A stretch of 64,000 nt of DNA from Rheinheimera mangrovi (GTDB taxonomy: Bacteria; Pseudomonadota; Gammaproteobacteria; Enterobacterales; Alteromonadaceae), in the NCBI RefSeq assembly GCF_003990335.1, contig NZ_CP034683.1, positions 2,494,501-2,558,500 on the forward strand. Reading direction: 5' to 3'. The translations under genes were made by a program, and so were the position numbers. Below, piece after piece: positions 8,398 to 63,957 of this stretch. The notes under the pieces are model-generated. The model made no database searches and was not told where the DNA came from. It saw only the letters and a list, made by a program, of their open reading frames with translations. The stretch's first letter is position 1. Every line of letters starts with the position of its first letter.

Positions 8398-8525
8398 ATA
8401 CCCAAAGTAATTGGAGTTGCAGGGAGGCGACAAGAGCGCGAGACCCCAGGAGCATAGTTAACCTATGTGACTGGGGCTTGAGCTCGCAGTCAACAACGCT
8501 GCGGCTTCAAGTACGAAGGGGATAT
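8398..8525 (+). repeat. Dispersed palindromic element, copy A
   Basis: About 128 bp between dgt and the patatin gene. Imperfect terminal inverted repeats start near TACCCAAAGTAATTGGAG and end near TTCAAGTACGAAGGGGATA. The central hairpin is CCCCAG-GAG-CATAG-loop-CTATG-TGA-CTGGGG (8444-8476). The arms between, GAGCGCGAG and CTTGAGCTC, also pair, so nearly the whole element can fold. Its right end supplies the purine-rich stretch just upstream of the next start codon. Confidence 0.88.
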
Positions 8526-8535
8526 GTGAGGGATA

Positions 8536-9567
8536 ATGTCGACACTAAGAGTACTGGCGGGAGCCACGGCCTTTGAACATCTGCAACAACACGGCTTACG
8601 TCAGCAGGATATCCATTTAGTCTTAGGCGCCAGTGGTGGCCCTAAATGGTTTTGTTTATTTGGTTTAGATCAGTATTTGTTTGGTGAATTTTTTAAAGAC
8701 AGAAGCACGCCTTTATCTTTAGTTGGTAGTTCGGCTGGTGCCTGGCGTTTTGCCTGTGTCACGCAGCAAAACCCTGCTGCTGCGACTGAACGATTTGCCA
8801 AAGCTTACAGCAGATTGTGTTTTCCACCCAAGGCCAGCATAGATCAAATTACCTCAACCTCAGCCGCCGTCTTGGATCAGGTATTTCCTGACGAAGACTG
8901 CATCTTGCAGGTGTTAAATAACCCCGTACTGCAACTGAATTTTATTGCTGCCCGCGAAGTGAAAGTCAGAAAGTCGGAGCGCAAAGGCGCTCAACTGCGG
9001 CGTTTGCTGCTGGCTGCCGGCGCGAATTTGCTTAAACCTGCTTTGCTGCAAAAGTTCTACAAAAGAGTGGTGATGCAAAACCACAGTAATCCGGGCTTAT
9101 TGCAGCATGTGCCACATGAAGCTTACCCACTGACCATAGATAACTTTAAAGCCAGTTTGTTGGCTTCAGGTTCTATTCCTATGGTGATGCATCCGGTGAA
9201 AGATCCTGCCGGATTACCAGCGGGTTTATATATGGACGGTGGTTTGTTGGATTACCATCTTTCCTTGCCTTACCAGCAGGAAGGTTTGATTTTATATCCA
9301 CACTTTTATCCGTACCTGATCCCTGGCTGGTTTGACAAATCTTTACCCTGGCGCCGCGCTAAAGCAGCTCAAATGGACAAAATGATCCTGCTGTGCCCAT
9401 CAGAATCCTGGGTAAAATCTTTGCCTTACGGCAAAATTCCGGACCGCAAGGATTTCGACAAACTAACTGATGCCCAGCGTCTGGAGTATTGGGCCCTGGT
9501 GCTGGAACGATCAAAAGAGCTGGCAGAGGATTTAAAATCCGGTAATTATCTGCTGGAAAAAATTTAG
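8536..9567 (+). CDS. Patatin-like phospholipase family protein
   Basis: A 343-aa protein with the patatin signature: oxyanion-hole glycines in VLGASGGPKWF (about residues 31-41), the nucleophile elbow VGSSAGAWR (Gly-Ser-Ser-Ala-Gly, about 63-71) and the catalytic-dyad Asp in YMDGGLLDYH (about 234-243). Ser-Asp acyl hydrolase activity on lipids is therefore expected. No signal peptide is seen, so it is probably cytoplasmic or peripheral to the membrane. It follows dgt with palindromic element A between them; GAGGG lies just before the start. Confidence 0.85.
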   Translation: MSTLRVLAGATAFEHLQQHGLRQQDIHLVLGASGGPKWFCLFGLDQYLFGEFFKDRSTPLSLVGSSAGAWRFACVTQQNPAAATERFAKAYSRLCFPPKASIDQITSTSAAVLDQVFPDEDCILQVLNNPVLQLNFIAAREVKVRKSERKGAQLRRLLLAAGANLLKPALLQKFYKRVVMQNHSNPGLLQHVPHEAYPLTIDNFKASLLASGSIPMVMHPVKDPAGLPAGLYMDGGLLDYHLSLPYQQEGLILYPHFYPYLIPGWFDKSLPWRRAKAAQMDKMILLCPSESWVKSLPYGKIPDRKDFDKLTDAQRLEYWALVLERSKELAEDLKSGNYLLEKI

Positions 9568-10032
9568 TTCAGGCAGGCCCCCATGAATAAACTCTGAGCT
9601 TTGACTGTATACCGAAGAGTAATTGAGCTGGGCAGCCATCAGATCCGCTCAGGGCCTCATGAAAGATCAGTGTGCCTATGTGACTGGGGCTTCAGGTGGC
9701 GCCTTGACCTGATTTTTTGTTTTACCTGACAACACCAACGCCATGCTGACCTTAGGTTATGTGCCTGCTGATGGGGTAAGCGATCAGGTTCTGATGCCAC
9801 ATGGTGGTTTCTTCGACGCGCTTTATGGCTTGGTTGTCACTTATGCTCAGGGACCAGAACATGCTGTGATGCATAATGAGGAACCCGCTGTACAAAGAGC
9901 AGAAACACTGGGTAACAATGGGTGGATTAACTTTAATGGCGAAAAACCGGAATTATTAACTCAGGTGAAAAGTAGCAGTAAAGCCTTAGGATCCGGACTG
10001 GTGCTCCGGGTCTGTTGTTAAAAGGAAATAAA
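9568..10032. other. Gene-poor interval with a decayed repeat copy and an unrecognised ORF
   Basis: The 465 bp between the patatin and DUF1349 genes contain a degraded copy of the dispersed element (about 9606-9712). A 92-codon plus-strand frame (9743-10021) has no Shine-Dalgarno and no family I recognise. That frame may be a remnant of a lost gene or chance; I do not call it as a gene. Confidence 0.4.
9606..9712 (+). repeat. Dispersed palindromic element, decayed copy G
   Basis: The left end GAGTAATTGAG and the right-arm string CCTATGTGACTGGGGCTT match element A, but the left hairpin arm and the right terminal repeat are lost. It can no longer fold into the full structure. Confidence 0.6.
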
Positions 10033-10596
10033 ATGACAACAACCTATCAATGGTTTAACCCTCCTCTGCATTACTCAGACGAGCCACCATTGCAATTTAC
10101 AACCGACGCCAACACAGATTTCTGGCAACATACCCATTATCACTTCTATCGGGATAATGGCCATTTTTACTACTGGAAAAGCAAAGCCGCCAGATTATCC
10201 CTACTTGTTGAAGTGCAGGTGAACGCTAATAGCAAGTTCGATCAAGCAGGTATTATGCTGAGAAAAGACGCGCATAATTGGTTGAAAATTTCTGCTGAGT
10301 GGTTGTCACCTGAAGAAGCTGCACTGGGCTCAGTGAATACGTTGGCTGGAAAATCAGACTGGGCTAGCCAAAGCATCAAGCCTGCAAAAAGCTGGATATT
10401 AAAAATAGAAATTTCTCAGCAGGACGCTATTGTCTCAGCCCTATCAGGACAAAGCTGGCAGCAACTGCGAGTACTTGATATCAGCCATATTAGGGATAAA
10501 GATCTGATTTGTCTCGGTATTTATGGCTGCAGCCCGGATGGGCCAGGCTGCGAAATTATTGTTCAGCGTATCGAATTTAACGAATCAGCTTTATAA
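10033..10596 (+). CDS. DUF1349 domain-containing protein
   Basis: A 187-aa protein that fits the DUF1349 family (concanavalin-like beta-sandwich, function unsettled): a WxHTHYHFYRDNGHFYYW block, then QAGIMLRKDAHNWLKISAEW and SPDGPGCEIIVQRIEF near the C-terminus. No signal peptide. The ATG at 10033 is preferred over the in-frame TTG at 10015 because AAGGAAA precedes it at normal spacing. It converges on the following acetyltransferase gene: their stop codons meet in the palindrome TTATAA. Confidence 0.75.
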   Translation: MTTTYQWFNPPLHYSDEPPLQFTTDANTDFWQHTHYHFYRDNGHFYYWKSKAARLSLLVEVQVNANSKFDQAGIMLRKDAHNWLKISAEWLSPEEAALGSVNTLAGKSDWASQSIKPAKSWILKIEISQQDAIVSALSGQSWQQLRVLDISHIRDKDLICLGIYGCSPDGPGCEIIVQRIEFNESAL

Positions 10597-11088
10597 AGAG
10601 CAGGTCATATAACAGGCTATTTCCGGTAAATAAGTATCCAGAATAGCCTGTTGCTCTGCACTGATCTCCCTCACTTTTACAAAACCTTGTTTTGCCCAAT
10701 AGCCTTCAGCCCCCTGCACTGCCACCAGAGCCAATGCCTCTAAGCCTAGTTTCTTCGCTTCAGTGCTGGCATTAGCCAATAACGCAGGCGCTAACGCCTG
10801 TCCGCGAAAATCACTGGAAATCGCCATATCATGCAGATACAAGCAGTTGGTATTTTGATACTGAGGAAAAGGAGCAGCTAAAGGCGTGATACTGCCTAAC
10901 ACAGAGGGATAGGCCAATAAGTAACCTGCCATTTGCTGATCAACAAAATAACCCCAGCAGGTCTGAGTAAAAGCAGACACTCGTTCTGACATCACAGCTG
11001 CCGATTCAACCAGTTCTTCGCTGTAGCAATTTTGTTGTACCTGCATCAATTGTGGTACATCACAAGCGGATAAAGTAAAAACAGACAT
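10591..11088 (-). CDS. GNAT family N-acetyltransferase
   Basis: A 165-aa acetyltransferase of the GNAT fold. Visible elements are CWGYFVDQQMAGYLLAY (strands 2-3), then LHDMAISSDFRGQALAPALLANAS, which is motif A (Q/R-x-x-G/A) for acetyl-CoA, and a C-terminal AVQGAEGYWAKQGFVKV. The substrate is unknown. Start is ambiguous: GTG 11103 or ATG 11088; neither has a strong Shine-Dalgarno, and I give the ATG. The 3' end overlaps the DUF1349 gene by 6 nt. Confidence 0.8.
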   Translation of the reverse strand: MSVFTLSACDVPQLMQVQQNCYSEELVESAAVMSERVSAFTQTCWGYFVDQQMAGYLLAYPSVLGSITPLAAPFPQYQNTNCLYLHDMAISSDFRGQALAPALLANASTEAKKLGLEALALVAVQGAEGYWAKQGFVKVREISAEQQAILDTYLPEIACYMTCSL

Positions 11089-11127
11089 AACAGACACCGA
11101 CACACATCAGCGGTAACGCTTGAATTG

Positions 11128-11164
11128 AAAACAAAAACCACCTGCTTTGGCTAAGACAAGTGGC
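11128..11164 (-). terminator. Intrinsic terminator of the small secreted protein gene
   Basis: A CCACCTG (11138-11144) and CAAGTGG (11157-11163) stem with one mismatch is followed on the minus strand by a T-rich run. A T-run also follows on the plus side, so it may work in both directions. Confidence 0.65.
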
Positions 11165-11205
11165 TTTTTTAAAACACTGAGCCTAAAAGTTATTTGTTTA
11201 GTTTT

Positions 11206-11610
11206 TTAGTTCAGACTTTTTAACAACGTCTGGTCCAAACCGTCTGCAGTGAGTAGCTTCACGATAGCTGTGCAGTGATCCAAAGTAAAATCACCTTCGC
11301 TGATTTGCAGGTTTAATGCTTCACGACGTTTTTGTACCACATCAGACAAGGTTTTATTGTCAGCGTCTGCGCCTTTTAATTTCTGCTCTAATTTGGCTAG
11401 CCATGGATAAAGCTGCTTTTCAGCGTCATAGGCCTGCTGTCGAATTTCTGGATGGTAATCTTCGCACGCATTTAAATTTAACAAGTAAAAATTCAGATAA
11501 CCGGCAACGGTCAGATACTGGTAGTCCACTGTGTCAGCTTTCACCGCAGAAGACAATGTCGCAGAACTTAAACATAAAGCAGCGAACAGGCTGTAACCTA
11601 ATTTCTTCAT
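11206..11610 (-). CDS. Secreted protein of unknown function, 134 aa
   Basis: The N-terminus MKKLGYSLFAALCLSSATLSS with AVKADTVDY is a typical Sec signal peptide, probably cleaved after KA or AD. The mature part is helical, with two cysteines (CEDYHPE and DHCTAIV) that could form a disulfide in the periplasm. I recognise no family. ATG 11610 is chosen over TTG 11613 because GGGGAG lies 6 nt upstream. A terminator follows, so it is probably monocistronic. Confidence 0.75.
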   Translation of the reverse strand: MKKLGYSLFAALCLSSATLSSAVKADTVDYQYLTVAGYLNFYLLNLNACEDYHPEIRQQAYDAEKQLYPWLAKLEQKLKGADADNKTLSDVVQKRREALNLQISEGDFTLDHCTAIVKLLTADGLDQTLLKSLN

Positions 11611-11747
11611 CAAAGACTCCCCAAAAAAATCGTAAATTCGATACTCAATCTACAGAGAATAACCTTCCATTTCAACACGACAGGTTATTTATAAGCTGTA
11701 AATTTAACATCCAAGCACTGGCCTATCATTTTTTTCATTTAAGCCAA

Positions 11748-12941
11748 TTAAAATATGCCGGCAGGTATTCTGACCCAACCTTCCATTAATACCCGCGCAC
11801 TTCGACTCATGATAGCTTTGGTTACCTTCCACTCGCCATCCACTAAAGCCGCTTCGGCCCCTACCCTTAAAGTGCCGGACGGATGACCAAAACGCACAGC
11901 TTTGCGTTTTACACCACCAGCCGCCAAATTGACTAAAGTGCCGGGTATCGCAGCTGCAGTGCCAATAGCAACAGCAGCAGTACCCATCATGGCGTGATGC
12001 AATTTGCCCATAGATAAAGCACGTACCACCAGATCGATATCGCCTCTAGTCACGGCCTTACCGCTTGAGGAGACGTAATCAGTCGAAGGCGCGACAAAAG
12101 CTACCTTAGGCGTATGCTGGCGGGTTTTGGCATCGTCAATATGCGCAATTAAACCCATTTTCACAGCACCATATGCCCGGATAGTCTCAAACATCGCCAA
12201 TGCTTTGGCATCGCCATTAATGGCATCCTGCAGCTCTGTGCCTGTATAACCTATGTCTTTGGCGTTCACAAAAATGGTCGGAATACCAGCGTTGATCAGT
12301 GTCGCCTTGAAAGTACCGACACCTGGCACGTCCAACTCATCGACTAAGTTGCCGGTTGGGAACATAGAACCGCCGCCCTCGCCGTCTTCGTCTGCGGCCG
12401 GGTCGATAAATTCCAGCTGCACTTCAGCGGCAGGGAAAGTCACACCATCCAGTTCAAAATCACCGCTTTCCTGCACTTCGCCGTTGATCATCGGCACATG
12501 AGCAATAATGGTTTTGCCAATATTGGCCTGCCAAATCCGCACTGTAGCTTTGCCGTTTGCTGGAATACGGCTGGCATCGACTAAACCTGCGCTAATGGCA
12601 AAAGAGCCAACAGCGGCTGATAAATTGCCGCAGTTACCACTCCAGTCGACAAAAGCTTTATCAATAGATACCTGACCAAACAGGTAATCCACATCATGAT
12701 CCGGCTGCTGGCTTTTCGACAAAATCACGATTTTGCTGGTACTGGAAGTAGCCCCCCCCATACCATCAATTTGTTTGCCATAGGGATCCGGGCTGCCAAT
12801 CACTCGCAGCAACAGCGCATCACGCGCTGCTCCCGGAGTTTGAGCCGCTTCTGGCAAATCCTGCAGACGGAAAAACACGCCTTTACTGGTACCGCCACGG
12901 ATATAAGTGGCCGGAATTTTTAGCTGAGGTAAATAGGTCAT
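11748..12941 (-). CDS. prpF: 2-methylaconitate cis-trans isomerase PrpF
   Basis: A 397-aa member of the PrpF family (diaminopimelate-epimerase-like fold). In the AcnD-dependent methylcitrate cycle it isomerises the trans-2-methylaconitate made by AcnD to the cis form used by aconitase. The N-terminal IPATYIRGGTSKGVFF block and DPYGKQIDGMGGATSSTSK are characteristic; IDWSGNCGNLS-type spacing (DWSGNCGNLSAAVG) holds the active-site Cys. It is the last gene of the prp operon, starting 11 nt after acnD with GAGGAG upstream. Confidence 0.95.
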   Translation of the reverse strand: MTYLPQLKIPATYIRGGTSKGVFFRLQDLPEAAQTPGAARDALLLRVIGSPDPYGKQIDGMGGATSSTSKIVILSKSQQPDHDVDYLFGQVSIDKAFVDWSGNCGNLSAAVGSFAISAGLVDASRIPANGKATVRIWQANIGKTIIAHVPMINGEVQESGDFELDGVTFPAAEVQLEFIDPAADEDGEGGGSMFPTGNLVDELDVPGVGTFKATLINAGIPTIFVNAKDIGYTGTELQDAINGDAKALAMFETIRAYGAVKMGLIAHIDDAKTRQHTPKVAFVAPSTDYVSSSGKAVTRGDIDLVVRALSMGKLHHAMMGTAAVAIGTAAAIPGTLVNLAAGGVKRKAVRFGHPSGTLRVGAEAALVDGEWKVTKAIMSRSARVLMEGWVRIPAGIF

Positions 12942-12952
12942 GTTGCAGCTCC

Positions 12953-15541: not shown

Positions 15542-15608
15542 GGCGTGGCCACTCAGTTAAATTGTTTACTTTAGATCCTACAAAAGCCCTTCGCGGGCTT
15601 CTGTTCGG

Positions 15609-15732
15609 ATCCCCTAAGTAATTGATGTTGCAGGGAGGCGACAAGTGCTCGAGACCCCAGGAGCATAGTGTTCTATGTGACTGGGGCGAGGCACGCGGTC
15701 AACGAAGCTGCAGCTTCAATTACGACGGGGAT
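15609..15732 (+). repeat. Dispersed palindromic element, copy B
   Basis: 124 bp with the best-preserved terminal inverted repeats: ATCCCC...GTAATTGA.GTTGCAG on the left matches the complement of the right end CTGCAGCTTCAATTACGACG plus GGGAT. The hairpin is CCCCAG-GAG-CATAG-TGTT-CTATG-TGA-CTGGGG. Its right edge meets the prpC stop codon: base 15732 is shared. It lies inside the prp operon, between prpC and acnD. Confidence 0.92.
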
Positions 15733-16859
15733 TAACGCTGCGCCAATGGCGTTACAGTACGTGGTTCCACGCCCGTATATTCAGCACTTGGGCGGATGAT
15801 ACGGTTGTCGGCACGTTGCTCCATCACATGGGCAGCCCAGCCTGTTAAACGTGAACAGACAAAAATCGGCGTAAACAGCTTGGTTGGAATACCCATGTAG
15901 TTGTAAGCCGAGGCATGGAAAAAGTCTGCGTTACAGAACAGTTTTTTCTCGCGCCACATGACGCTTTCACAGCGTACAGAAATGTCGTACAAGGAAGTAT
16001 TGCCGTTGGCTTTACCCAGCTTTTCTGACCATTCTTTGATCACTGCGTTACGTGGGTCGGACTCTGCATAAATGGCATGGCCAAAGCCCATGATTTTTTC
16101 TTTACGTTCCAGCATGCCCATTAACTTGGTTTCGGCATCATCCGGATTGTCCATCTTTTCAATCAGTTCCATCGCAGCTTCGTTCGCGCCACCGTGCAGA
16201 GGGCCACGTAATGAACCTATAGCGCCTGTGATGCAAGAATGCATGTCACTTAATGTGGAAGCACAAACACGGGCCGTAAAGGTAGAAGCATTAAACTCGT
16301 GCTCTGCATATAAAATTAGCGAAGAGTTCATTACATCCGTGTGCAGCTGAGTTGGTTTTTCACCATGTAAAGTCCAGAGGAACTGCTCGGCAATAGAATC
16401 GGCCGCTGTTTCCACTTCAATGCGCTGACCTTTATGGCTGAAGTTATACCAGTAGTTAATTAAGCCAGGGAAAATCGCCAGTAACCTGTCGGTTGCATCC
16501 TGTTGCTGGGCAAAACTCTGTTCAGTTTCTAAGTTGCCTAACATAGAGCAACCCGTGCGCATCACATCCATAGGATGAGCAGAAGCAGGAATACGTTCCA
16601 GCACTTCTTTTAATGCCTGTGGCAGGTTACGCATAGCTTTTAAGCGTTGTTTGTACGCAGCCAGTTCTGCTTCGTTAGGTAACTCGCCTTTTAAAATCAG
16701 GTGCGCTACTTCTTCAAATTCACAGTGAGCGGCTAAGTCTTTGACGTCGTAACCACGATAGGTCAGGCCAGAACCTGTTTTGCCTACTGTGGATAAAGCG
16801 GTTTTACCTGCGATTTGGCCACGTAAGCCAGCGCCTGATAATTCTTTTGCGTTCGCCAT
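15732..16859 (-). CDS. prpC: 2-methylcitrate synthase PrpC
   Basis: A 375-aa type II citrate-synthase-family enzyme that condenses propionyl-CoA with oxaloacetate. Key motifs are GLTYRGYDVKDLA near the N-terminus, GSLRGPLHGGANEAAMELI (active-site His region), IMGFGHAIYAESDPR (second His) and a C-terminal Asp-containing block. The short length and GLTYRGY start match 2-methylcitrate synthases better than GltA. Second structural gene of the prp operon, 81 nt after prpB; its stop codon touches repeat element B. Confidence 0.95.
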   Translation of the reverse strand: MANAKELSGAGLRGQIAGKTALSTVGKTGSGLTYRGYDVKDLAAHCEFEEVAHLILKGELPNEAELAAYKQRLKAMRNLPQALKEVLERIPASAHPMDVMRTGCSMLGNLETEQSFAQQQDATDRLLAIFPGLINYWYNFSHKGQRIEVETAADSIAEQFLWTLHGEKPTQLHTDVMNSSLILYAEHEFNASTFTARVCASTLSDMHSCITGAIGSLRGPLHGGANEAAMELIEKMDNPDDAETKLMGMLERKEKIMGFGHAIYAESDPRNAVIKEWSEKLGKANGNTSLYDISVRCESVMWREKKLFCNADFFHASAYNYMGIPTKLFTPIFVCSRLTGWAAHVMEQRADNRIIRPSAEYTGVEPRTVTPLAQR

Positions 16860-16940
16860 CTTGTCTCTCCGTTTTTAATTTGTTCTGTTGATTTATTGAA
16901 TGCTGTTTGGCTTATGATTATTTTTTGTTGGCCCAACTTT

Positions 16941-18513: not shown

Positions 18514-18516
18514 TAG

Positions 18517-18528
18517 ATTGTCGACAAT
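18517..18528. promoter_or_regulatory. Palindromic operator 1 of the prp operon
   Basis: ATTGTCGACAAT is a perfect 12-bp palindrome 3 bp upstream of the GntR start codon, well placed for repression. Confidence 0.65.
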
Positions 18529-18588
18529 AATTAGAATGTTATTACGTTTTACGCCTGATACAGACTTTGGTCAAGCTAAAATGAGATG

Positions 18589-18602: not shown

Positions 18603-18627
18603 AGACTAAAGTACTAGAGGAAGTTGT

Positions 18628-18720: not shown

Positions 18721-18721
18721 T

Positions 18722-19447: not shown

Positions 19448-19984
19448 AGTTGGACCTTTTAGTGGCAGTGGTTATTAAGTGAATTGAATCAAGTAATTAC
19501 ACTGGCAGATCTCAGTCAAAAAAGATAGCTACCACACAATGAAACATAGGGAGTCTCTGATTCTTTATTTCCGCAACGAAACAAATAAAATCAGCTGGTC
19601 AGATAGGTTCCTGCTGGCGGATTTGCAGTTTTTATTAGATTAATTTTTTCTAACATTCATAACCTGTAAAAACTTTGGCTTCTATGGAGATTTTATGACT
19701 CTGATTTTAATTCTTCAGCAAAAGCTTATACAGCCTGAGGTGGAGTGGATAACTTGGGGATAACTGCGGTATAAGGTTAGAATAAGTTTTGACTTCAGTT
19801 TCCAATTGAAGCACTTAAAAAGCAAAGACTGATGCAGGAAATTTCTGCAGCTTTGTCTACACTCAAAACCAGTAAGTTAACCTGTTTGTCCTCTTTGGTT
19901 CCGTATAGCGCACGGCTCATTTAGATGAGCCATTCCCCTAAGCCCAGAATGGTTCCCTTGATTCTGGGCTACTTTTCCCTTCAA
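19448..19984. other. Gene-poor region with a 22-codon ORF and two strong hairpins
   Basis: 537 bp without a recognised gene. A 22-codon plus-strand frame (19695-19763) has GGAG 5 nt before its ATG. Two perfect hairpins follow: GGCTCAT-TTAG-ATGAGCC (19914-19931) and AGCCCAGAAT-10 nt-ATTCTGGGCT (19941-19970). The second is followed on the plus strand by ACTTTTCCCTT. The layout suits a short rightward transcript, peptide or sRNA, ending there; this is inference. Confidence 0.4.
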
Positions 19985-24649: not shown

Positions 24650-24655
24650 CTCGTT

Positions 24656-26251: not shown

Positions 26252-26557
26252 CTTTTCTTCCTTTTTCTCATGTAAATCGCAACAATTGGTGCAATTTTGT
26301 TTGGCGGCTAGTTTATGCGTAAGCCCGGTTTGTTGCAAGCAAAGCACTTCGCTTTTCATGCTGGTCAAACCATTTGCCTTCGTCTTTGCAGCCGCAGCTT
26401 TGTTGACTTCGCTCTGTCGCCCCAATCACATAGAATACTATGTTCATGGGGACTCATCGCTTGTCGTCGCGCTGCACCACCAATGACTTTGGCATTTTGC
26501 CTTAGTTCCTGAAACAGCAGTTTTATTGACTGCAACTTCAGCCACACTGGCAAAAGC
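26252..26557. other. fabG-acpP intergenic region
   Basis: 306 bp. The right part holds palindromic element C; the left part (26252-26373) is likely to hold the strong acpP promoter and 5'-UTR. No gene is seen. Confidence 0.6.
26374..26500 (-). repeat. Dispersed palindromic element, copy C
   Basis: Read on the minus strand it runs from CCAAAGTCATTGG to AAAGACGAAGGCA. The hairpin is CCCCAT-GAA-CATAG-TATT-CTATG-TGA-TTGGGG; the innermost outer-stem pair is T-T, as in copy D. It lies between fabG and acpP, in line with their transcription. Confidence 0.87.
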
Positions 26558-31016: not shown

Positions 31017-31123
31017 AAGGCGCGCATCATATAGATCGAGGCTAAAGCTGTCAAAGGATTCCTGCCTCTTTTTTGTTAATTTTCCCGCCTAAACCGCTGT
31101 TCTGACGGCCGTTATGGCTTAAT

Positions 31124-31251
31124 CTACCCAAAGTGACTGATGTTGCAGCGCGACGACAAGCTTTTGAAACCCTATGAGCATAGAAAAACTATGTGATTAG
31201 GGCGAAAAAGTGCAGTCAACAAAGTTGCAACTTCAGGTAGGAAGGGTATAG
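31124..31251 (+). repeat. Dispersed palindromic element, copy D
   Basis: 128 bp from CTACCCAAAGTGACTGATG to GGTAGGAAGGGTATAG. The hairpin is CCCTAT-GAG-CATAG-loop-CTATG-TGA-TTAGGG. Relative to copies A and B the fourth outer pair changes from C-G to T-A on both sides, a compensatory change. It lies in the divergent yceD-maf promoter region. Confidence 0.9.
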
Positions 31252-31281
31252 TGCGGCGCATTGTCCCAACGAGGTGCATTT

Positions 31282-34211: not shown

Positions 34212-37200
34212 ATGAAAAGAATGTTAATTAACGCCACGCAGGAAGAAGAAATCCGCGTAGCACTTGTCGATGGACAAAAATTATACGACCTGGATATCGA
34301 AAGCCCAGGACACGAACAGAAAAAAGCAAATATCTACAAAGGACGAATCACCCGGGTTGAGCCCAGTCTGGAAGCAGCTTTTGTTGATTATGGCTCTGAA
34401 CGACATGGCTTTTTACCTCTGAAAGAAATCTCCCGCGAATATTTCCCTGCCGGTTATACCTTTGACGGTCGCCCAAATATTAAAGAAGTAGTCAAAGAAG
34501 GTCAGGAAGTTATTATCCAGATTGATAAAGAAGAACGTGGCCAAAAAGGTGCAGCCTTAACCACTTTTATCTCTTTAGCTGGTTCTTATTTAGTACTGAT
34601 GCCTAACAATCCACGTGCCGGCGGTATTTCCCGTCGTATCGAAGGTGACGAGCGTCAGGACTTAAAAGACTCTTTGGATCAATTACAACTGCCAGACGGC
34701 ATGGGTTTAATAGTGCGTACCGCTGGTGTGGGTAAGTCTCACGAAGAGCTGGATTACGACTTAAAAGCCTTATTAAAGCACTGGTCTGCTATTACGCATG
34801 AAGCACAAAACCGCCCTGCTCCATTCCTGATCCATCAGGAAAGCAACGTGGTATTCCGCGCTATTCGTGATTATCTGCGCCGTGATGTCGGTGAAATACT
34901 GATCGACAACCCACGTATTTTCGAAGAAGCCAAAGTTTATATTCAGCAATTCCGTCCTGATTTTGCCCACCGCGTCAAAATGTATCAGGGCGAAGTGCCG
35001 CTGTTTATGCATTTCCAGATTGAAACTCAAATCGAGTCAGCCTTCCGCCGTGAAGTGCGTTTACCTTCTGGTGGCTCTATCGTGATCGACAGCACTGAAG
35101 CCTTAACAGCCATTGACATCAACTCGTCAAAAGCAACTAAAGGCGGTGACATCGAAGAAACAGCCTTTAATACCAACTTAGAAGCAGCCGATGAAATTGC
35201 CCGTCAGTTACGTTTACGTGACTTAGGTGGTTTGATTGTGATCGACTTCATCGATATGACGCCAGTGCGTCATCAACGTGAAGTAGAAAACCGCTTAAAA
35301 GACGCCGTAAAACAAGACCGTGCCCGCGTACAGATTGGCCGCATTTCACGTTTTGGTTTACTGGAAATGTCACGTCAACGTTTACGTCCTTCACTGGGCG
35401 AGTCTGCGACTCATGTGTGTCCACGTTGTCATGGCCGCGGCACTATTCGCAGCACTGAGTCTTCCGCTCTGTCGATTTTACGTTTAATCGAAGAAGAAGC
35501 TATTAAAGACAACACCAGTCAAATTCATGCTCAGGTGCCTGTCTCAGTTGCGACCTACCTGATGAACGAAAAACGTGATTCAGTGCGTCGTATAGAGAGC
35601 CGTCACGGTATCCGGATTTACATCATCCCTAACGAACATATGGAAACGCCAAACTATGAAGTGACGCGTATTCGTATCGACGAAGAGATTGAAGAATCCA
35701 GCTACAACATGGTGAAAGCACCTGCGGTCGGCAGTGCTGTGTATCACCCTATTGGCGAAACAGTAAAAGAAAAACCAGCAGTATCCGCCATTAATATGGC
35801 TGAAGCTTCTTCCTCTGCCGCGCCAGCTGCAGCTGCAACCCGTAAAGTTGAAGTGGCTGAAGTAAAAGATGCAGGCCCTGGCCTGGTTGAATCTGTAGTG
35901 GGTTGGTTTAAATCTTTATTCGCTGCTGCACCTGCACCAGAGAAAAAGGTAGAAGAAGCCCCGCGTCGCAACAATAACCGTGATAACAACAGACGTCGTA
36001 ACAACAAAAATCGCCGCCGTCAGGAAGGGGATGAAAAAGTTGCAAAAGACGACAACGCTAGTCCAGCGAAAACTGAACGCACTACTGAGCGTACTGCAGA
36101 ACAACGAGCGCCAAGACAGGATAAGGCTCGTCAGGAACGTGGTGAGCGCCAGGAACGTGGAGAACGTTCAGAGCGAGCTGAACGAGGCGAGCGTAACGAA
36201 CGTCAGGAACAGAAGAAACCTGTATCAGAACGTCCAGCTCCGGTCAAAGCCGTAGATCACGACGAAGAGCACAGCACTAAGATTGTTGAGCGCCGTCAAC
36301 GTCGTCAGATGCGCAAGTCTGTTCGTCACGAAAAAGAAGGCGTTGAAGCAGTTGTAGTAACAACAGCTGTTGAAGCAGCTGTGGTAGCTACACCTGTTGT
36401 TGAGACCGCTGTAGTTGCACCTGTAGCCATCGACACTGTTGTAGCGGAAATTGCCGCGGCAGAACCAGTCACAGCGGCTGAAGCACCTGTTCAGGCCGAT
36501 GCTGTTGAAGCTGACACTGTGGCTACAGATGCGGGTGAAACAACTGGTGCAGAAAGCTCTGATGCGGAAAAAGAAGCCGCTGAAGGTCGTAGCCGCAGCC
36601 GTCGTTCTCCTCGTCATTTACGTGCTGCTGGCCAGAAACGTAAAAAAGAACAACAGGACCAGGAAGCTGAAGAAGCTTTAGCTGCCCGTTACCCTGAAGA
36701 TCAGGAGGCTGCGGTAAGCACTGAACAGCAACTGGATCTGCCTATCGCTGAAGAAGCGAAAGAAGTGGCTGTTGTTGAAGCTAAACCAGCTCCTGTCGTT
36801 GAAACTGCATCTGTTGCTGCTGAACCAGCTCCGGTCGTTGAAGCTGCACCTGTTGCTGCTGAACCAGCGCCAGTGGTTGAAACTGCACCTGTAGCTGCTG
36901 AGCCAGCGCCAGTGGTTGAAACTGCACCTGTAGCTGCTGAGCCAGCGTCAGTGGTTGAAACTGCACCTGTAGCTGCTGAACCAGCGCCAGTGGTTGAAAC
37001 TGCACCTGTAGCTGCTGAACCAGCGTCAGTGATTGAAGCTGCACCTGTAGCTGCTGAACCAGCGCCAGTGATTGAAGCTGCACCTGTAGCTGCTGAACCA
37101 GCTACAGTGGTTGAAACTGCACCTGATGCTGAAGAAGCTCCAAAAGCCAAAACACGTAAAGCGCCTGCGAAAAAAGTAGTAGCTGAAGTGAAAGCTCCGG

Positions 37201-37418
37201 TTGCTGCTGCTAACAGATACGCAAAAATGGTGACTGCGGATATGACTAAGCCAGTAGCCAAAGCTGAAGCTCTGGCTACTGTTGAAGCAGCACCTCAGGC
37301 AACTAGCATGGATAACAGCGAACGACCACTGGTCATCAGCTCAGAACGTCCTGGTGGCTCAGCCTCTGCCCGTCAGATGAGTGTTGCTCCTATGACAAAA
37401 CCAGGTTCAGTTGAATAA
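34212..37418 (+). CDS. rne: Ribonuclease E
   Basis: A 1068-aa endonuclease of mRNA decay and rRNA/tRNA maturation. The first about 80 residues, with the S1 domain ([21 protein letters not shown]), are nearly as in E. coli. Catalytic Asp residues are in [13 protein letters not shown] (about 303) and LIVIDFIDM (about 346), and the Zn-link is CPRCHGRG (about 404). The C-terminal scaffold half is disordered: basic RNA-binding blocks ([23 protein letters not shown]) and then a 13-residue tandem repeat. The end holds a short conserved-looking tail. A strong terminator follows. Confidence 0.97.
36795..37133 (+). repeat. 39-bp in-frame tandem repeats in the RNase E tail
   Basis: Eight full 39-bp units and one partial unit encode [17 protein letters not shown] 13-mers. 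Variation lies mainly at fixed positions (T/A, V/I, P/S/T). Neighbouring units are nearly identical, so copy number may vary between strains. Antisense frames over this stretch are artefacts. Confidence 0.93.
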
Positions 37419-54587: not shown

Positions 54588-54615
54588 TACAAAGCCAGCG
54601 CAGAATCAGTATAGG

Positions 54616-56188: not shown

Positions 56189-56212
56189 GCTGTTACTCCT
56201 GTGCCGTCATTT

Positions 56213-57138: not shown

Positions 57139-57199
57139 CGGTGATGATCCTGTAACCAGATGTTATAGAGGCAGAGTTTATCACTCCGCCTCTGTAAAG

Positions 57200-57961
57200 T
57201 TACATACTAATACCGCCGTCTATTTCTACAACTCGACCGGTAAAAAAGTCGTTTTCAAAGATGTATTTCGCAGTGTGCGCAATTTCTGTGGCTTCGCCTA
57301 AACGCCCAACCGGCTTCATCGCCACTAAACGGTCGCGGGCTTCAGGTTTCATCGCGTCCGTCATCGCAGTGCGGATCACACCTGGTGCTATAGCGCCGAC
57401 ACGAATACCATAACGGCCTAACTCACGAGCCCAGGTTACAGTCATAGCCACTACACCAGCTTTGGAAGCAGCATAGTTGGTTTGGCCCATATTGCCTGCA
57501 CGGGCCACGCTCGACATATTGATAATCACACCTTTGCGGCCTGACTTCACCATCAGAGCCGCCGCTTCACGGCCACACAAAAACACGCCGGTTAAATTCA
57601 CATCAATCACAGACTGAAACTGTTGATGCGACATTTTGCTGACCAGCTCACCGTCTTTAAATTTCAGCAATAAACCGTCACGTAAAATACCAGCGTTGTT
57701 AATCAGACCATCAATAGCGCCAAAATCTGCGGCTATGGCAGCAAAGGTGGTTTCGACACTTTCTTCATTGGCAACGTTACAGGCATAAGTACGTACTGTC
57801 ACACCAGTGGACGACAACTCATCTTTGGCTGATGCCAGTTGCTCTGCATTCATATCCAGCAATGCTAAATGAGCACCTTCAGCAGACAACATCCGGGCCA
57901 TTTCTAAACCCAGGCCCTGAGCACCACCTGTCACTACTATAATTTTGTCTTTTAAATTCAT
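57200..57961 (-). CDS. Short-chain dehydrogenase of the valine-degradation cluster
   Basis: A 253-aa SDR with cofactor motif TGGAQGLGLEMARML, NNAGILRDGLLL, and catalytic Ser/Tyr/Lys in INMSSVARAGNMGQTNYAASKAGVVAMT. In gene order it sits after mmsB at the end of the valine cluster, so it is likely a 3-hydroxyacyl-CoA or ketoacyl reductase of branched-chain degradation; substrate inferred from position. Related to fabG at 26558 but clearly distinct. Confidence 0.85.
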   Translation of the reverse strand: MNLKDKIIVVTGGAQGLGLEMARMLSAEGAHLALLDMNAEQLASAKDELSSTGVTVRTYACNVANEESVETTFAAIAADFGAIDGLINNAGILRDGLLLKFKDGELVSKMSHQQFQSVIDVNLTGVFLCGREAAALMVKSGRKGVIINMSSVARAGNMGQTNYAASKAGVVAMTVTWARELGRYGIRVGAIAPGVIRTAMTDAMKPEARDRLVAMKPVGRLGEATEIAHTAKYIFENDFFTGRVVEIDGGISM

Positions 57962-57999
57962 TATCTTATTACCTGCAAAAAGGGCTTGCCGCAGAACTC

Positions 58000-58905
58000 T
58001 TAGTTCTTTTTGGCAAACATCTTAAAAATACCGGAGAAATCTTCTTTGCCGTGGCCCTGACGCTGATGCGCCACATAGAGGCTACGGGCTAAGGTCCCCA
58101 TAGGGGTACTGGATTGACTGGACAATGCGGTTTCAGTGGCTAAGGATAAATCTTTGGCCATTAAATCCACCATAAAACCGCCCTGATAACCATTGCTCGA
58201 CGGCACATTTGGCATCACATCAGGACATGGATTATACAGTTCTAGAGTCCAGTTACGGCCAGAACTTTTCAGCATAATATCGGACAATACTTTCGGATCC
58301 AGGCCATTGTCTATGCCTAGTTGCAGGGCTTCACTGGTCCCCACCATCAAAATGGACAACAGCATATTGTTGCAAATTTTCGCAACCTGACCTGCACCAA
58401 CATCACCGGCATGAAACAGGTTTTTACCCATCACAGATAATACAGGTTCGGCGCGTTTAAAGTTTTGCTCTGAACCACCGACGATAAAGGTCAGAGTGCC
58501 AGCTTTCGCACCGCCTACGCCACCTGATACGGGTGCATCGATAAAGGCTATTCCCTGCTCTGCCAGTTCAGCACCTACTTTGCGGGCTGTGGCGGCGTCA
58601 ATAGTAGAGCAATCAATCACCAGCGTATCTTTGCCAAGCACTGAAGCTATGCCTGTCTCGCCTGTGTACACCATAGCGACATGCTTACCAGCGGGCAGCA
58701 TGGAAATCACAAAATCAGCCCCTGTCGCAGCTTCAGCTGCAGAAGTGCAGGCTTTCGCACCTTCAGCTGCCAGTTGAGCTAAAGCTGTTTCGGATAAATC
58801 AAAAGCCTGAACCTTAAAACCTGCTTTTAATACATTGCTGGCCATTGGGCCGCCCATATTGCCTAAACCAATAAATGCAACCGTTGCTTGAATAGTAGCG
58901 CTCAT
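58000..58905 (-). CDS. mmsB: 3-hydroxyisobutyrate dehydrogenase
   Basis: A 301-aa enzyme that oxidises 3-hydroxyisobutyrate to methylmalonate semialdehyde with NAD. FIGLGNMGGPMASNVLKAG binds NAD, FIDAPVSGGVGGAKAGTL is the substrate loop, and the catalytic Lys is in GAGQVAKICNNMLL. It starts 1 nt after the hydrolase gene ends. Confidence 0.95.
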   Translation of the reverse strand: MSATIQATVAFIGLGNMGGPMASNVLKAGFKVQAFDLSETALAQLAAEGAKACTSAAEAATGADFVISMLPAGKHVAMVYTGETGIASVLGKDTLVIDCSTIDAATARKVGAELAEQGIAFIDAPVSGGVGGAKAGTLTFIVGGSEQNFKRAEPVLSVMGKNLFHAGDVGAGQVAKICNNMLLSILMVGTSEALQLGIDNGLDPKVLSDIMLKSSGRNWTLELYNPCPDVMPNVPSSNGYQGGFMVDLMAKDLSLATETALSSQSSTPMGTLARSLYVAHQRQGHGKEDFSGIFKMFAKKN

Positions 58906-58906
58906 A

Positions 58907-60058
58907 TTAATGCTCCAGCGAACCTAAATGTTGTAATGGATGTAAGTCAGCAGCCCATGGCGAATGAAACAGCTGATTAATCACATCAGCGGGCACGTCA
59001 GACACAGATTTATAGCGCCAGTTTGGCTTTTGGTCTTTATCAATCAGCAGCGCCCGCACTCCTTCGGTAAATTCGCCTAATTTGCCGCACTGCACGCTTA
59101 AACCCAGCTCCAGCCGGAAGGAGTCGGCCAGAATTTTGCTTTGGCCCAGTTGTAATAAGCGATAGACAATATGAGCAGTAATAGGACTGCCGTAGTTCAA
59201 CGAGGCTTTAGCTTTGATGAGCCAGGCGTCTTCGTTTGGCATGGCCAGAATAAGCTCAACGGCCTGTTGCAACGAGGTAGCGCGACCTACAGCGCTGATA
59301 GAGGCCTGATGTAAACGAATTTGACTCGGTGGCATCTGACTACGACACATGTCTTCCATACCGAGTAATAAGTCGGTCAGCTTCTGATGATTCAGCGCTA
59401 TGGTATTGCCCCATTTCACCTGGGTTAATTTATCCAGCACAGCGGCTTTTTTATCATGAGTTAAAAAATGATCGGCTAAATCGATGAGTTTGGCATCGGC
59501 TGAATTAATGGAGGCACCTGTCAGGCCCAAAAACAAGCCACACCCTTCCGGCATCCGGTTTAAAAACCAACTGCCGCCAACATCAGGGTATAAACCTATG
59601 GCCATCTCAGGCATAGCAATGCGGCTGCTGGCTGTGACTATACGATGTGATGCGCCCGCCATCAGGCCTAAACCGCCGCCCATCACTATGCCATTGCCCC
59701 AGACCAGCACAGGCTTGTCGAAGGTATGGATCAAATAATCCAGGTTGTATTCTTTGGTAAAAAATTCTTCGACATAAGGCTGGTAGCTATCAGGAGCTGC
59801 TTTCATCGCCTGATATAAATCGCGGATATCACCACCGGCACAAAAGGCTTTATCGCCAGTGCCCTGCAGCACCACCAAGGCTATATTGGTGTCGTTTTTC
59901 CATTGCTGCATTTGCGGCAGCAACAGCTCCACCATAGCTAAACTCAGGGCATTCAGTGACTTTTCTGAGTTTAAGGTCGCTATACCAATAATTTTGCCGC
60001 CAACACAGGCGATTTCTTCAAACAGCACCACATCTTGCTGGCTTATGTTTTCAGTCAT
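58907..60058 (-). CDS. 3-hydroxyisobutyryl-CoA hydrolase
   Basis: A 383-aa crotonase-superfamily enzyme. The fold motifs GDKAFCAGGDIRDLYQAMK and VWGNGIVMGGGLGLMAGASHRI, with MPEMAIGLYPDVGGSWFLNRMPEG, are those of HIBYL-CoA hydrolases, which free 3-hydroxyisobutyrate for mmsB. ATG 60058 has AAGGTG 6 nt upstream; the open frame to 60076 is not used. It follows the enoyl-CoA hydratase by 10 nt. Confidence 0.92.
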   Translation of the reverse strand: MTENISQQDVVLFEEIACVGGKIIGIATLNSEKSLNALSLAMVELLLPQMQQWKNDTNIALVVLQGTGDKAFCAGGDIRDLYQAMKAAPDSYQPYVEEFFTKEYNLDYLIHTFDKPVLVWGNGIVMGGGLGLMAGASHRIVTASSRIAMPEMAIGLYPDVGGSWFLNRMPEGCGLFLGLTGASINSADAKLIDLADHFLTHDKKAAVLDKLTQVKWGNTIALNHQKLTDLLLGMEDMCRSQMPPSQIRLHQASISAVGRATSLQQAVELILAMPNEDAWLIKAKASLNYGSPITAHIVYRLLQLGQSKILADSFRLELGLSVQCGKLGEFTEGVRALLIDKDQKPNWRYKSVSDVPADVINQLFHSPWAADLHPLQHLGSLEH

Positions 60059-60068
60059 GTTTTGCACC

Positions 60069-60842
60069 TTATCCATTCACCCAGCTGGCTTTACGTTTTT
60101 GTAAAAAGGCCTGTACCCCTTCGACCTGATCCTGGGTATCAAACAACTTCACAAAAAGCTCACGCTCTAAAGGCAAGGCAGTTTGTACTGGAGCACTACG
60201 ACCTTTTTGGATCAGCTGTTTACAGGCGGCTACGGCTGGCGGGCTTTGCTCTGCAACTTTATCCGCCAGCAATAAAGCAGCTTCCAGCGCCATACCAGTC
60301 CCCACCACTTCTTCGACTAAACCTATCTGTAAGGCTTTCTCTGCCGTTACACGTTCACCACAGAGGATCATACGTTTAGCCCAACCTTCACCCACCAGAA
60401 TCGCCAGATTCTGGGTACCGCCAGCGCAAGGCAATAATCCTACTTTGGCTTCAGGTAACGCCATTTGCGCCTGAGTTTCAGCAATACGAATGTCACAGGC
60501 TAACGCCACTTCCAGACCACCTCCCATGGCATAGCCATTGATAGCGGCGATAGAAACGCCACGAAAGGCGGTTAAAGTTTCAAAGGCCTCACCAAAAATG
60601 GCCGACATATCAGCTGCTACTGCTTTGTCACCCGAGGCAAACAAATTTAAATCTGCACCAGCAGAGAAGAATTTTTCGCCTTCTCCCGTGACCACTAGCG
60701 CATAAATATTTTTATCCTGATCCAAAGATTTCACCGCATCACGCAGTTGAGTTAAGGTCTCTTTGGTCCAGGTATTGGCAGGAGGATTTGCCATGGTAAT
60801 TAAAGCGGTATGGCCGCGTTTTTCGAGTTTGAGTTGTGCCAT
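60069..60842 (-). CDS. Enoyl-CoA hydratase (methacrylyl-CoA hydratase)
   Basis: A 257-aa crotonase. GEGEKFFSAGADLNLF and GYAMGGGLEVALACDIRIAE form the oxyanion hole, with the glutamate in MALPEAKVGLLPCAGG. In this cluster it should hydrate methacrylyl-CoA to 3-hydroxyisobutyryl-CoA. ATG 60842 follows AAGGAG. Repeat element E lies just upstream, between it and the acyl-CoA dehydrogenase. Confidence 0.9.
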   Translation of the reverse strand: MAQLKLEKRGHTALITMANPPANTWTKETLTQLRDAVKSLDQDKNIYALVVTGEGEKFFSAGADLNLFASGDKAVAADMSAIFGEAFETLTAFRGVSIAAINGYAMGGGLEVALACDIRIAETQAQMALPEAKVGLLPCAGGTQNLAILVGEGWAKRMILCGERVTAEKALQIGLVEEVVGTGMALEAALLLADKVAEQSPPAVAACKQLIQKGRSAPVQTALPLERELFVKLFDTQDQVEGVQAFLQKRKASWVNG

Positions 60843-60916
60843 AAAATCTCCTTTTTTACCGGTTTTTTTATCAGATAATCCGGTTAGCTTTTTACCTAAA
60901 GTCCAGCGCACTGCAA

Positions 60917-60963
60917 CCCTAAATCATTGGAGTTGCAGCGCGGCGACATGTACGACGGGCATA
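60917..60963 (+). repeat. Dispersed palindromic element, internally deleted copy E
   Basis: The left end (CTAAATCATTGGAGTTGCAG CGCGGCGACA) is joined directly to the right end (TGTACGACGGGCATA), with the central hairpin missing. It sits between two genes of the valine cluster, antisense to them. Confidence 0.75.
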
Positions 60964-60966
60964 AAC

Positions 60967-62124
60967 TTACAAAATGTCGTTGGCTGCTTCGTCCAGTAAA
61001 CGACGACCAATAATCAGTCGCATAATTTCATTGGTGCCTTCCAAAATCTGATGCACCCGAACATCGCGGAAATGCCGCTCCAGCGGATATTCTTTGATAT
61101 AACCATAACCACCGTGTAATTGCAGCGCCTGATCACAGACCTGGAAACCCACATCTGTGGCAAAACGTTTCGCCATAGCACAGTAAGCTGTTTTTTCCGG
61201 GTCGTTTGAATCCAGTTTAAACGCTGCTAAACGCACTAATTGCCGGGCAGCGACTAATTCGGTGGCCATATCTGCCAGTTTAAACTGCAGCGCCTGAAAC
61301 GCAGCTAAAGGCTTGCCAAACTGCTGACGCTCCAGCATGTAGTTACGGGCTGTATTTAAGGCTTGTTGTGCTGTGCCGATAGAGCAAGTGGCGATATTAA
61401 TACGACCGCCGTCTAAGCCTTTCATGGCAAAGCCAAAACCTTCCCCTTCGTTACCAAGCAGGTAATGAGTCGGAATACGCACATTATCAAAAGTAATTAA
61501 ACGGGTTGGCTGGGCATTCCAACCCATTTTCTCTTCGGCTTTGCCGTAAATAACGCCTTGTGCGTCTGCTGGCACTATAAAAGCAGAAATGCCTTTGGGA
61601 CCAGCTTCGCCAGTGCGGGCCATCACCACTAAAACTTCAGTTTCGCCAGCACCAGAGATAAACATCTTGGAGCCGTTTAATACATAGTGATCGCCGTCTT
61701 TTTTTGCACTGGTGCGCAACGAGGCAGCGTCCGAGCCTGAACCTGGTTCAGTTAAACAATAAGACGCCAGCTTTTCGCCTGTGACTAACGCAGGACACCA
61801 CTGAGCTTTGGCATCTGCTGTGCCCCAGCTGGCAATCATCCAGGTCGCCATATTATGGATGGTTAACATGGCCGTTGTGGCCGTACAGCCCATCGACAGC
61901 TGTTCAAAAATAATGCTGGAATCTAAACGGGATAAGCCCATACCGCCTTGATCTTCAGGCGTATATAACGAACAAAAACCTAATTCTCCGGCTTTTTGAA
62001 TAACGTCTTTTGGAAAATGATGTTCGCGGTCCCACTGTGCTGCATGAGGCGCCAGTTCTTGTTCAGCGAATTGTTTAGCGACCTCCACAAAGGCCTTTTG
62101 ATCATCTGTTAAATTAAAATTCAT
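60967..62124 (-). CDS. Acyl-CoA dehydrogenase (isobutyryl-CoA type)
   Basis: A 385-aa flavoprotein. YCLTEPGSGSDAASL and MFISGAGETEVLVVM bind FAD and substrate, LQLHGGYGYIKEYPLERHFRDVRVHQILEGTNEIMR is the C-terminal signature with the base Glu. In this gene order it should oxidise isobutyryl-CoA to methacrylyl-CoA. ATG 62124 is preferred over GTG 62127. The 177 bp between it and mmsA hold an imperfect hairpin near 62250-62296. Confidence 0.92.
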   Translation of the reverse strand: MNFNLTDDQKAFVEVAKQFAEQELAPHAAQWDREHHFPKDVIQKAGELGFCSLYTPEDQGGMGLSRLDSSIIFEQLSMGCTATTAMLTIHNMATWMIASWGTADAKAQWCPALVTGEKLASYCLTEPGSGSDAASLRTSAKKDGDHYVLNGSKMFISGAGETEVLVVMARTGEAGPKGISAFIVPADAQGVIYGKAEEKMGWNAQPTRLITFDNVRIPTHYLLGNEGEGFGFAMKGLDGGRINIATCSIGTAQQALNTARNYMLERQQFGKPLAAFQALQFKLADMATELVAARQLVRLAAFKLDSNDPEKTAYCAMAKRFATDVGFQVCDQALQLHGGYGYIKEYPLERHFRDVRVHQILEGTNEIMRLIIGRRLLDEAANDIL

Positions 62125-62301
62125 CACATCACCCTGAGGTTTTAGCAGAGCAGTGTCTGGTGCACTGTGATCTTTCTGCCACTTTGGTCTTCATGCGTTT
62201 ATACGCATTTAATCTGGCTTGGTTGTTTGCCTAAAGGCTTTTTATTCATAAAGCGTTCTGCTTCTCACGCAGAGCAAACAGAACGTTTTTCTGCTGCTTA
62301 A

Positions 62302-63798
62302 TTAACGCAGGTTAATCGACATATTAGGGCCTGACACCGGAATGGAGTCGTCAAACCAACGGGCGGTAATGGTTTTGGTTTCTGTGTAAAAACGCACAGC
62401 TTGTTTACCGTAAGCATGTTGATCGCCATAGAACGAGCCTTTCCAGCCTGTGAAAGAGAAAAATGGCAGAGGTACAGGAATAGGAATGTTGATACCGACC
62501 TGACCTACTTCAATTTCATGCTGGTATTTACGCGCTGCAGCGCCACTGGCGGTGAAAATAGAAGTACCGTTGCCATATGGGCTGTTGTTCACCAGCTCAA
62601 TGGCTTCATCCAACGAAGCGGCATTCACTGTAGCCAGTACTGGGCCAAAGATCTCTTCTTTGTAGATGGTCATATCAGGAGTGACATCACTAAATACAGT
62701 TGGCCCCACCCAGTTGCCATTTGGATAACCCGCCACTTTGATATCTGAGCCATCCACTAAACAAGTGGCGCCTTCGACTTTGCCTTGTTCAATTAAAGAC
62801 AAAATACGGGCCTTCGCCTGAGGGCTGATTTGTGGGCCGTAGGCAGCTTCAGGGTCTGTGTACACACCTGGGCGCACTTTAGCGATGGCAGCGGCAACTT
62901 CCGGGATCCACTGCTGCGAATCACCGACAAAAACAGCCACAGAAATCGCCATACAACGCTGCCCTGCAGCACCGACTGAAGCGCCAACCAAGGCATTGAT
63001 CACTTGTTGTTTATTGGCATCCGGCATGATGACCATATGGTTTTTGGCACCAGCAAAAGCCTGCACACGTTTTAAATGGTCAGTGCCTGTTTTGTAAATG
63101 TACTGGCCGACATTAACAGAGCCAACAAAAGAAATAGCTTTGATGTCCGGGTGACGTAATAACACATCCACCTGCTCTTTGTTGCCATGCACCACCTGCA
63201 ATACGCCTGCAGGTGCACCAGCTAAAGCAAAAAGCTCAGCGATTTTATTCACTGTCATCGGATCTTGTTCAGACGGCTTCAGAATAAAAGTGTTACCGCA
63301 GGCAATAGCCATAGGGAACATCCACAGCGGGATCATAGCCGGGAAGTTAAAAGGCGTAATACCAGCACACACACCTAAAGGCTGAATATAGCTGTAGGTG
63401 TCGATGCTGCGTGCTACGTTTTCCACCGTCTCGCCCATCATCAACGACGGAATATTCGCCGCTTGTTCCACCACTTCAATACCACGCCAGACGTCACCTT
63501 TGGCATCTTCCACTGTCTTGCCTAATTCACGGCAAATAATCTCAGCAATTTCAGCCTGGTGTTCTTTTAATAAGTGAGCAAAACGCATCATTAAACGGGC
63601 ACGTTCTGACACCGGCACTTCTTTCCAGCTTTTAAAAGCTTCTTTGGCGGAGGCAATAGCATAAGCCATTTCATCTGCGGTAGTGCAAGGCACCTGAGCT
63701 ATCACGTCCTGAGTGGCAGGATCGGTCACCGGAATAAAACGCTCTGACTTGGACGGGACAAATTCACCGTTGATAAATAACTGAACCTGGTGGGCCAT
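62302..63798 (-). CDS. mmsA: Methylmalonate-semialdehyde dehydrogenase
   Basis: A 498-aa CoA-acylating aldehyde dehydrogenase that turns methylmalonate semialdehyde into propionyl-CoA and CO2. The catalytic Cys lies in [17 protein letters not shown], with the [20 protein letters not shown] and [13 protein letters not shown] blocks typical of MmsA. ATG 63798 (MAHQVQLF) has GGGGAG upstream; the longer open frame to 63876 is repeat element F, not gene. It leads the operon for valine degradation. Confidence 0.95.
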
Positions 63799-63815
63799 AA
63801 TACTTCTCTCCCCTT

Positions 63816-63957
63816 TATAGCCTTCGTATTTGACGCCACAGCGGCGTTGACTGCGCTTCTCGCCCCAGTCACCCATTCCTTATTGAAAAGGGACAACTAT
63901 GCTCCTGGGGTCTCGCTCGCTTGCCGCCTTGCTGCAACACCAATTACTTTGGCTATT
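63816..63957 (-). repeat. Dispersed palindromic element, copy F with enlarged loop
   Basis: About 142 bp, read on the minus strand. The outer stem CCCCAG-GAG ... TGA-CTGGGG is kept, but the CTATG partner is replaced and the loop is longer. Its inner edge touches the ribosome-binding region of mmsA, so it is probably transcribed in the mmsA leader. The sequence beyond it (63958-64000) is AT-rich with no recognised feature. Confidence 0.85.

Follow-up and report, generated by a model that had tools for sequence, protein, structure and literature searches.

A 64,000-nucleotide window of the Rheinheimera mangrovi genome (contig NZ_CP034683.1, positions 2,494,501 to 2,558,500) carries six copies of a small palindromic repeat, five of full length and one internally deleted. 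The repeat is very probably ERIC (enterobacterial repetitive intergenic consensus, also named IRU or RU-1), a non-coding miniature inverted-repeat transposable element (MITE) of ∼127 bp resident in Rheinheimera. The full-length copies lie at 8396..8526 (plus strand, 140.8 bits), 15607..15735 (plus strand, 136.9 bits), 26370..26498 (minus strand, 124.5 bits), 31122..31252 (plus strand, 131.5 bits) and 63814..63958 (minus strand, 111.7 bits), the last with ∼15 extra nucleotides at the tip of its central hairpin. Scores are those of R1, a covariance model built from these five copies. In the window, R1 finds exactly the five on their own strands (111.7–140.8 bits) and, additionally, four weaker opposite-strand matches at the same places, confirming an earlier note, made from the letters alone, that had placed five copies there on mixed strands (+,+,−,+,−). 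Since R1 was trained on the window copies, independent support comes from the E. coli ERIC match of the copy at 8396..8526, from 123 further matches in the genome and from the plus-strand folds of the five copies, with z-scores of −3.7 to −8.3 against shuffles. Two open reading frames (ORFs) of the same direction (7106–8377 and 8536–9567) flank the first copy, and a terminator-like hairpin, recognized by eye, immediately precedes the second. The ORFs flanking the third are, by eye, putatively fabG and acpP, and the ORF at 31261, downstream of the fourth, is by eye presumably a Maf-like gene. The sixth copy (60912..60965, plus strand) reaches 8.8 bits by covariance model over 60917–60963, only with filters off, and its pairwise alignment score of 61 compares with a shuffle maximum of 62 (1000 shuffles). 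It is considered an internal-deletion derivative, as proposed earlier, because three of five relatives (G001, G019 and G005) carry a full-length element in the syntenic spacer; G020 and G008 have none.

The identity of the repeat relies on its sequence. Aligned with one gap to the E. coli ERIC consensus in print (PMC2759123, Table 1a), a consensus of 205 non-redundant full copies, retained from 267 places after partial and duplicate matches were dropped, is identical to it at 104 of 128 columns. The alignment score of 182 lies 18 standard deviations above the mean of 500 shuffles (mean 43.3, standard deviation 7.7, maximum 68). The consensus element measures 128 nt, and 195 of the 205 full copies are 117–129 nt long in the nhmmer alignment. 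When the copy at 8396 is used as query, 5,372 of 5,426 complete E. coli genomes match at E up to 1; in 2,844 of them a match spans no less than 80% of the query. Among the matches listed, identity is 74–76% over 88–95%. The same copy matches 44 of 72,556 plasmid records, some of them chromosome-sized, from Salmonella, Escherichia, Klebsiella, Citrobacter, Yersinia, Proteus, Vibrio, Serratia and Kosakonia. The consensus ends are TATACCC...GGGTATA, with 66–82% conservation of the left-end TATA columns. The end sequence, TACCCNNNGTNNTTGNNGYTGCAG, is inverted at the other end, and a pattern for the ends occurs 97 times on one strand of the genome and 98 times on the other, versus 2 and 0 for the reversed control. 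A terminal inverted repeat and TA at the ends, two ERIC properties tabulated in PMC2229807, are both found here. The match to ERIC rules out a new, unnamed family. The earlier note, which knew of no named family with this sequence, is wrong on this point, and a match to a described family was the outcome it had itself named as refuting it.

ERIC is abundant in Rheinheimera. In the 4,628,354 bases of the single contig, R1 finds 128 matches with an E of at most 0.001, short and decayed ones included. The R1 searches of this genome and of the 22 Rheinheimera genomes give lower bounds (150 of 770 first-look candidates were scored in the former). All 22 genomes, R. mangrovi included, have matches, from 4 to 148 per genome. 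The hundreds of copies per genome expected earlier, at about one per 9 kb, are not shown by this count, a lower bound. The genome average is approximately one ERIC per 36 kb (128 in 4.63 Mb), and the window is denser, with five in 64 kb. Besides Rheinheimera, a pattern for the element core matches Tolumonas, Serratia, Vibrio nereis and unclassified metagenome-assembled genomes, among the matches listed.

Variants of the element are found in the R. mangrovi genome. Head-to-tail arrays of 124–127-bp units occur at 693150–693906, 1398710–1399093 and 3271863–3272242, and a dense cluster with arrays at 3265680–3284570 has 11 model matches in 19 kb. Six long copies of 184–188 bp (at 3457524, 2322500, 1971019, 77666, 648482 and 288237) contain 55–60 bp of extra sequence, in all cases exactly after CTATGTG of the central hairpin. 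The inserts are of two sequence types with a common GGATTGARGCG stretch; interrupted ERICs are known from enterobacteria. Three copies of 64–75 bp are internal deletions that keep both ends.

Occupancy of syntenic sites, compared by eye, varies among relatives; the clade considered has 12 members, including R. mangrovi (G000). At site 8398, the element is found in three of them (G000, G008 and G020) and is missing from the remaining ones, G014 having a short stretch, possibly a remnant. The empty site of G001, with similar flanks, displays a single TA (TCTA-AGTGAGGG), whereas the filled site of G020 is TCTA-TATCC...GGGTA-TA-TGCGAGGG; the best reading is a TA duplication. At site 31124, the full element occurs in G000, G001 and G005 and a decayed full-length one in G008 (4 of 12 members), short remnants are seen in G002, G014 and G020 (3 of 12), and the site is empty in G004, G011, G013, G017 and G019 (5 of 12). 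This scatter could include losses or exchange. At 31240–31252, the right end of ERIC joins host DNA as GGGTATAGTG, where the empty sites of relatives read GTTATAGTG. The insertion thus keeps a TATAGT box, possibly a −10 promoter element, which the right end of this copy provides ahead of the ORF at 31261. Site 26374, for which 22 syntenic sites were compared, is devoid of the element in all 10 species outside the clade. Inside it, the element is full in 7 of 12 members (one locus being cut within the element) and only a short palindromic relic is present in 5 of 12, relic and full element standing side by side in several members. Site 15609 is empty in five of six relatives, and G001 has a copy of opposite orientation nearly at the same place. 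At site 63816, compared with G001 excluded for a missing anchor, G019 has a full element with the same ∼15-nt insert, G020 a full element without it, G008 a divergent copy and G005 an internally deleted one. At every one of the six genuine window sites, occupancy thus varies within one clade, the behaviour expected of mobile elements. Filled and empty sites, together with the reading of a TA duplication, support a MITE. The earlier description is upheld in this respect: the MITE is palindromic and dispersed, bears terminal inverted repeats and a central hairpin, and has deletion derivatives.

Several observations weigh against this picture. A TA duplication is readable at one site only; there, the filled and the empty site disagree at two positions beyond the TA, and at site 31124 the left flank has diverged and the duplication is unreadable. 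Some of the differences in occupancy could also reflect precise loss or gene transfer. Among 35 of the better-scoring copies of the genome, pairwise identity averages roughly 0.674 and the nearest-neighbour median is 0.80, with the closest pairs sitting in one array; as a group, the copies look old, and present activity is conjectural. A transposase sharing the terminal repeats, as the earlier note had envisaged, was not found in a partial search of lone ends and IS630 loci. The search of lone ends covered 11 ends without a full element, in ten stretches, drawn from ∼100 listed of 195 pattern matches. Six of them have weak R1 matches (13.6–27.2 bits) and look like truncated copies, and five have no match; no enclosing transposase gene is apparent, nearby ORFs being judged by size and position only. 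The IS630-type domain PF13358 occurs in 8 of the 22 Rheinheimera genomes and does not track ERIC copy number, and no ERIC-like ends are present at the eight IS630-type loci, other TA-targeting families not having been searched.

ERIC copies are largely confined to spacers. Among 138 non-redundant copies, 134 lie between ORF calls of at least 100 amino acids and four within an ORF. The count uses simple ORF calls with at least 1 kb on each side, by-place loci, partial matches and copies nearer to a locus end being dropped. Most of the intergenic copies (116 of 134) have such an ORF no more than 60 nt away. Where the flanking ORFs are co-directional, 33 copies are sense and 46 antisense, without clear orientation preference. 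One long hairpin is common to 39 elements, taken from Rheinheimera, from its order and from other orders. In their alignment, 95.3% of cells are paired (75.9 in shuffles) and 39 of 42 pairs undergo two-sided change (24.2 in shuffles); slid versions of the structure leave 33–39% paired, in a comparison that favours the structure proper, which was predicted on the same alignment. The consensus fold has −53.9 kcal/mol on the plus strand versus −34.1 kcal/mol on the minus strand. On the plus strand, G-U pairs outnumber A-C pairs (108 versus 16), as if selection acted on a single strand. Most of this excess stems from predicting the fold on that strand, since it shrinks to 21 to 10 cells (12 to 3 pairs) when the comparison is restricted to the 31 pairs found from either strand.

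Such features raise the possibility that the repeat is foremost a structured element of mRNA, acting on stability or processing, which was spread by old mobility and is now kept by selection on its fold. In Yersinia, ERIC within mRNA is reported to affect transcript decay in an orientation-dependent manner (PMC2229807; PMC10969869), and the strong compensatory change, the better folding of the plus strand and the 21 to 10 excess of G-U cells on that strand would all suit such a function. The near balance of 33 sense and 46 antisense copies does not, nor do the varying occupancy of all six real window sites within one clade and the drop in strand asymmetry once the one-strand prediction bias is removed. 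An RNA element of this kind is conceivable but rather unlikely as the main explanation. With ERIC regarded as a MITE, a copy between co-transcribed genes would still be read into mRNA, where its hairpin may alter transcript stability according to orientation, as in Yersinia.

How the MITE would move can be sketched. A TA-targeting DDE transposase, encoded elsewhere or since lost, would recognize the ends and move copies. Slippage, or recombination of one arm with the other, would produce the internal deletions, and local duplication the arrays. In its part on ERIC, a 2007 review (PMC2229807) finds no experimental support for how the element moves. One alternative is the genome's own IS630-type insertion sequence as both source and mobilizer. 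Mobilization of this kind has been proposed for RUP of Streptococcus pneumoniae, a 107-bp MITE with TA target and IS630-Spn1 as the proposed mobilizer (PMC2229807); moreover, ERIC has TA at its ends and a probable TA target, and R. mangrovi possesses one gene of IS630 type whose open frame spans 359 amino acids. Yet the best ungapped matches of the 26-nt ERIC ends in the eight loci are 15–16 of 26, versus 15–17 in one shuffle per locus, and several genomes, such as G001, G014 and G020, exceed 100 copies without a PF13358 match. Such a partnership is therefore improbable, and IS630 is rejected as mobilizing partner since no ends are shared. Spread by a RAYT (Y1) transposase, as for REP/BIME-type palindromes, is hardly credible: the elements are palindromic, intergenic, of high copy number and sometimes tandem, but their unit is ∼127 bp instead of the 20–40 nt of the REP palindromic unit (PMC3733652), they have TA at the ends and they match ERIC in sequence.

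One further place in the window had been taken for a decayed copy, so that seven were counted; six hold and this one, at 9606–9712, does not. The region 9568..9720 (plus strand) consists of remains of a LysR-type regulator gene, extending to ∼9691, and a short piece of DNA that in a congener is located further downstream, as indicated by alignment with this congener and by Pfam. The congener G001 has an intact LysR-type gene at the equivalent place (PF00126 and PF03466). Positions from 9568 onward align with the start of this gene, 9646–9691 with a later part and 9691–9720 with DNA beyond it, and the remains carry internal deletions. The stretch 9606–9712 has no hairpin (z +1.40) and 0.9 bits with filters off. 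Its score of 83 against the ERIC consensus, above the shuffle maximum of 75 (1000 shuffles), counts against the rejection, but LysR homology accounts for the stretch better than ERIC does. The alignment with G001 overturns an assignment of part of 9568–9720 as the start of a short-chain dehydrogenase gene.

Other features were noted in the window. At gathering level, Rfam returns no ERIC among its window matches, only two other small RNAs, SdsR/RyeB and SraC/RyeA, which overlap on opposite strands at 19832–19981. Approximately ten 39-bp tandem repeats occupy 36695–37209 within a long ORF (34212–37418), and a unit of 75–76 bp, by eye unrelated to ERIC, occurs in three to four head-to-tail copies at 5657–5916.

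ERIC and ERIC-like elements extend beyond the genus. In family and order searches, few candidates were scored per genome under stricter filters, and the counts are lower bounds: 32 of 147 genomes of the family match at 1e-5, and 90 of 394 genomes of the order at 1e-6, in 36 of 114 genera. In a class sample of 369 genomes, 12 match, namely R. mangrovi and 11 genomes outside its order, from nine families. Six of these 11 reach 1e-14 or better, and five range from 4e-7 to 3e-11, four of the five with a single match. In a phylum sample of 398, 27 match, 26 of them in the host's order (R. mangrovi included) and one, weakly, outside it, in a genome of 76% completeness. In the order of genome G843, 8 of 14 genomes match, with 55, 54, 45, 39, 11, 5, 2 and 1 copies. 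Identity to the consensus is 60–72% outside the host's order (15 of 17 loci), versus 48–55% for one shuffle each, and 67–88% inside it (26 of 27 loci), in a measurement that left out the truncated loci L289, L304 and L312. The out-of-order elements keep the ends, several sequence blocks and the same hairpin fold. For them, homology is more likely than convergence, with the qualification that the model requires the fold and that the search itself selects for some of the identity. As we are inclined to believe, ERIC would then belong, as a single branch, to an old superfamily of hairpin MITEs with TA ends in Gammaproteobacteria, a superfamily expanded in at least one other order and occurring in several further families. 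Features common to its members are TATACYC...GRGTATA ends, AGGCG-CAAG and CAACA blocks, a central GGAG-stem-loop-GACT and a compensated fold. If this is true, the shared mobilizer of the superfamily is better sought outside enterobacteria.

ERIC is used for typing. Published descriptions place it in Enterobacteriaceae and Vibrionaceae, where E. coli K-12 has 30 copies, Salmonella 150 and Photorhabdus 711 (PMC10969869), and it is also found in V. cholerae and Y. pestis (PMC2267715). The literature searched holds no report of ERIC in Rheinheimera, the one Rheinheimera paper among the matches listed being on an integrative element. For other Gammaproteobacteria, literature searches on ERIC and similar elements gave nothing relevant among the matches listed, and the wider range may be in print. 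Rheinheimera is thus a new host of a known family, and the element itself is ordinary. Less ordinary are the relatives of ERIC beyond the host's order, with a host range that looks wider than the name suggests. With its polymorphic sites and its 4 to 148 copies in each species, the genus, together with ERIC-like elements in other orders, constitutes a comparative system that would allow insertions to be dated, the target site to be defined and the transposase to be sought by co-occurrence.

Among known systems, RUP resembles the Rheinheimera element as a small palindromic non-coding element with TA at its ends; compared by description, it differs in length and host, and the test for an IS630 partner failed for ERIC. 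YPAL/RU-2 and Correia/NEMIS share the general architecture of bacterial MITEs but, again by description, have other lengths and terminal repeats according to the table of PMC2229807. The closest likeness is with ERIC of Enterobacteriaceae and Vibrionaceae, in length, sequence, TATACCC...GGGTATA ends, the single long stem–loop and intergenic location. Differences from it concern the host, Rheinheimera, and the central hairpin, mostly CATAG...CTATG in Rheinheimera instead of the CTTAC...GTAAG of the E. coli consensus. A further possible difference lies in the several head-to-tail arrays of 124–127-bp units.

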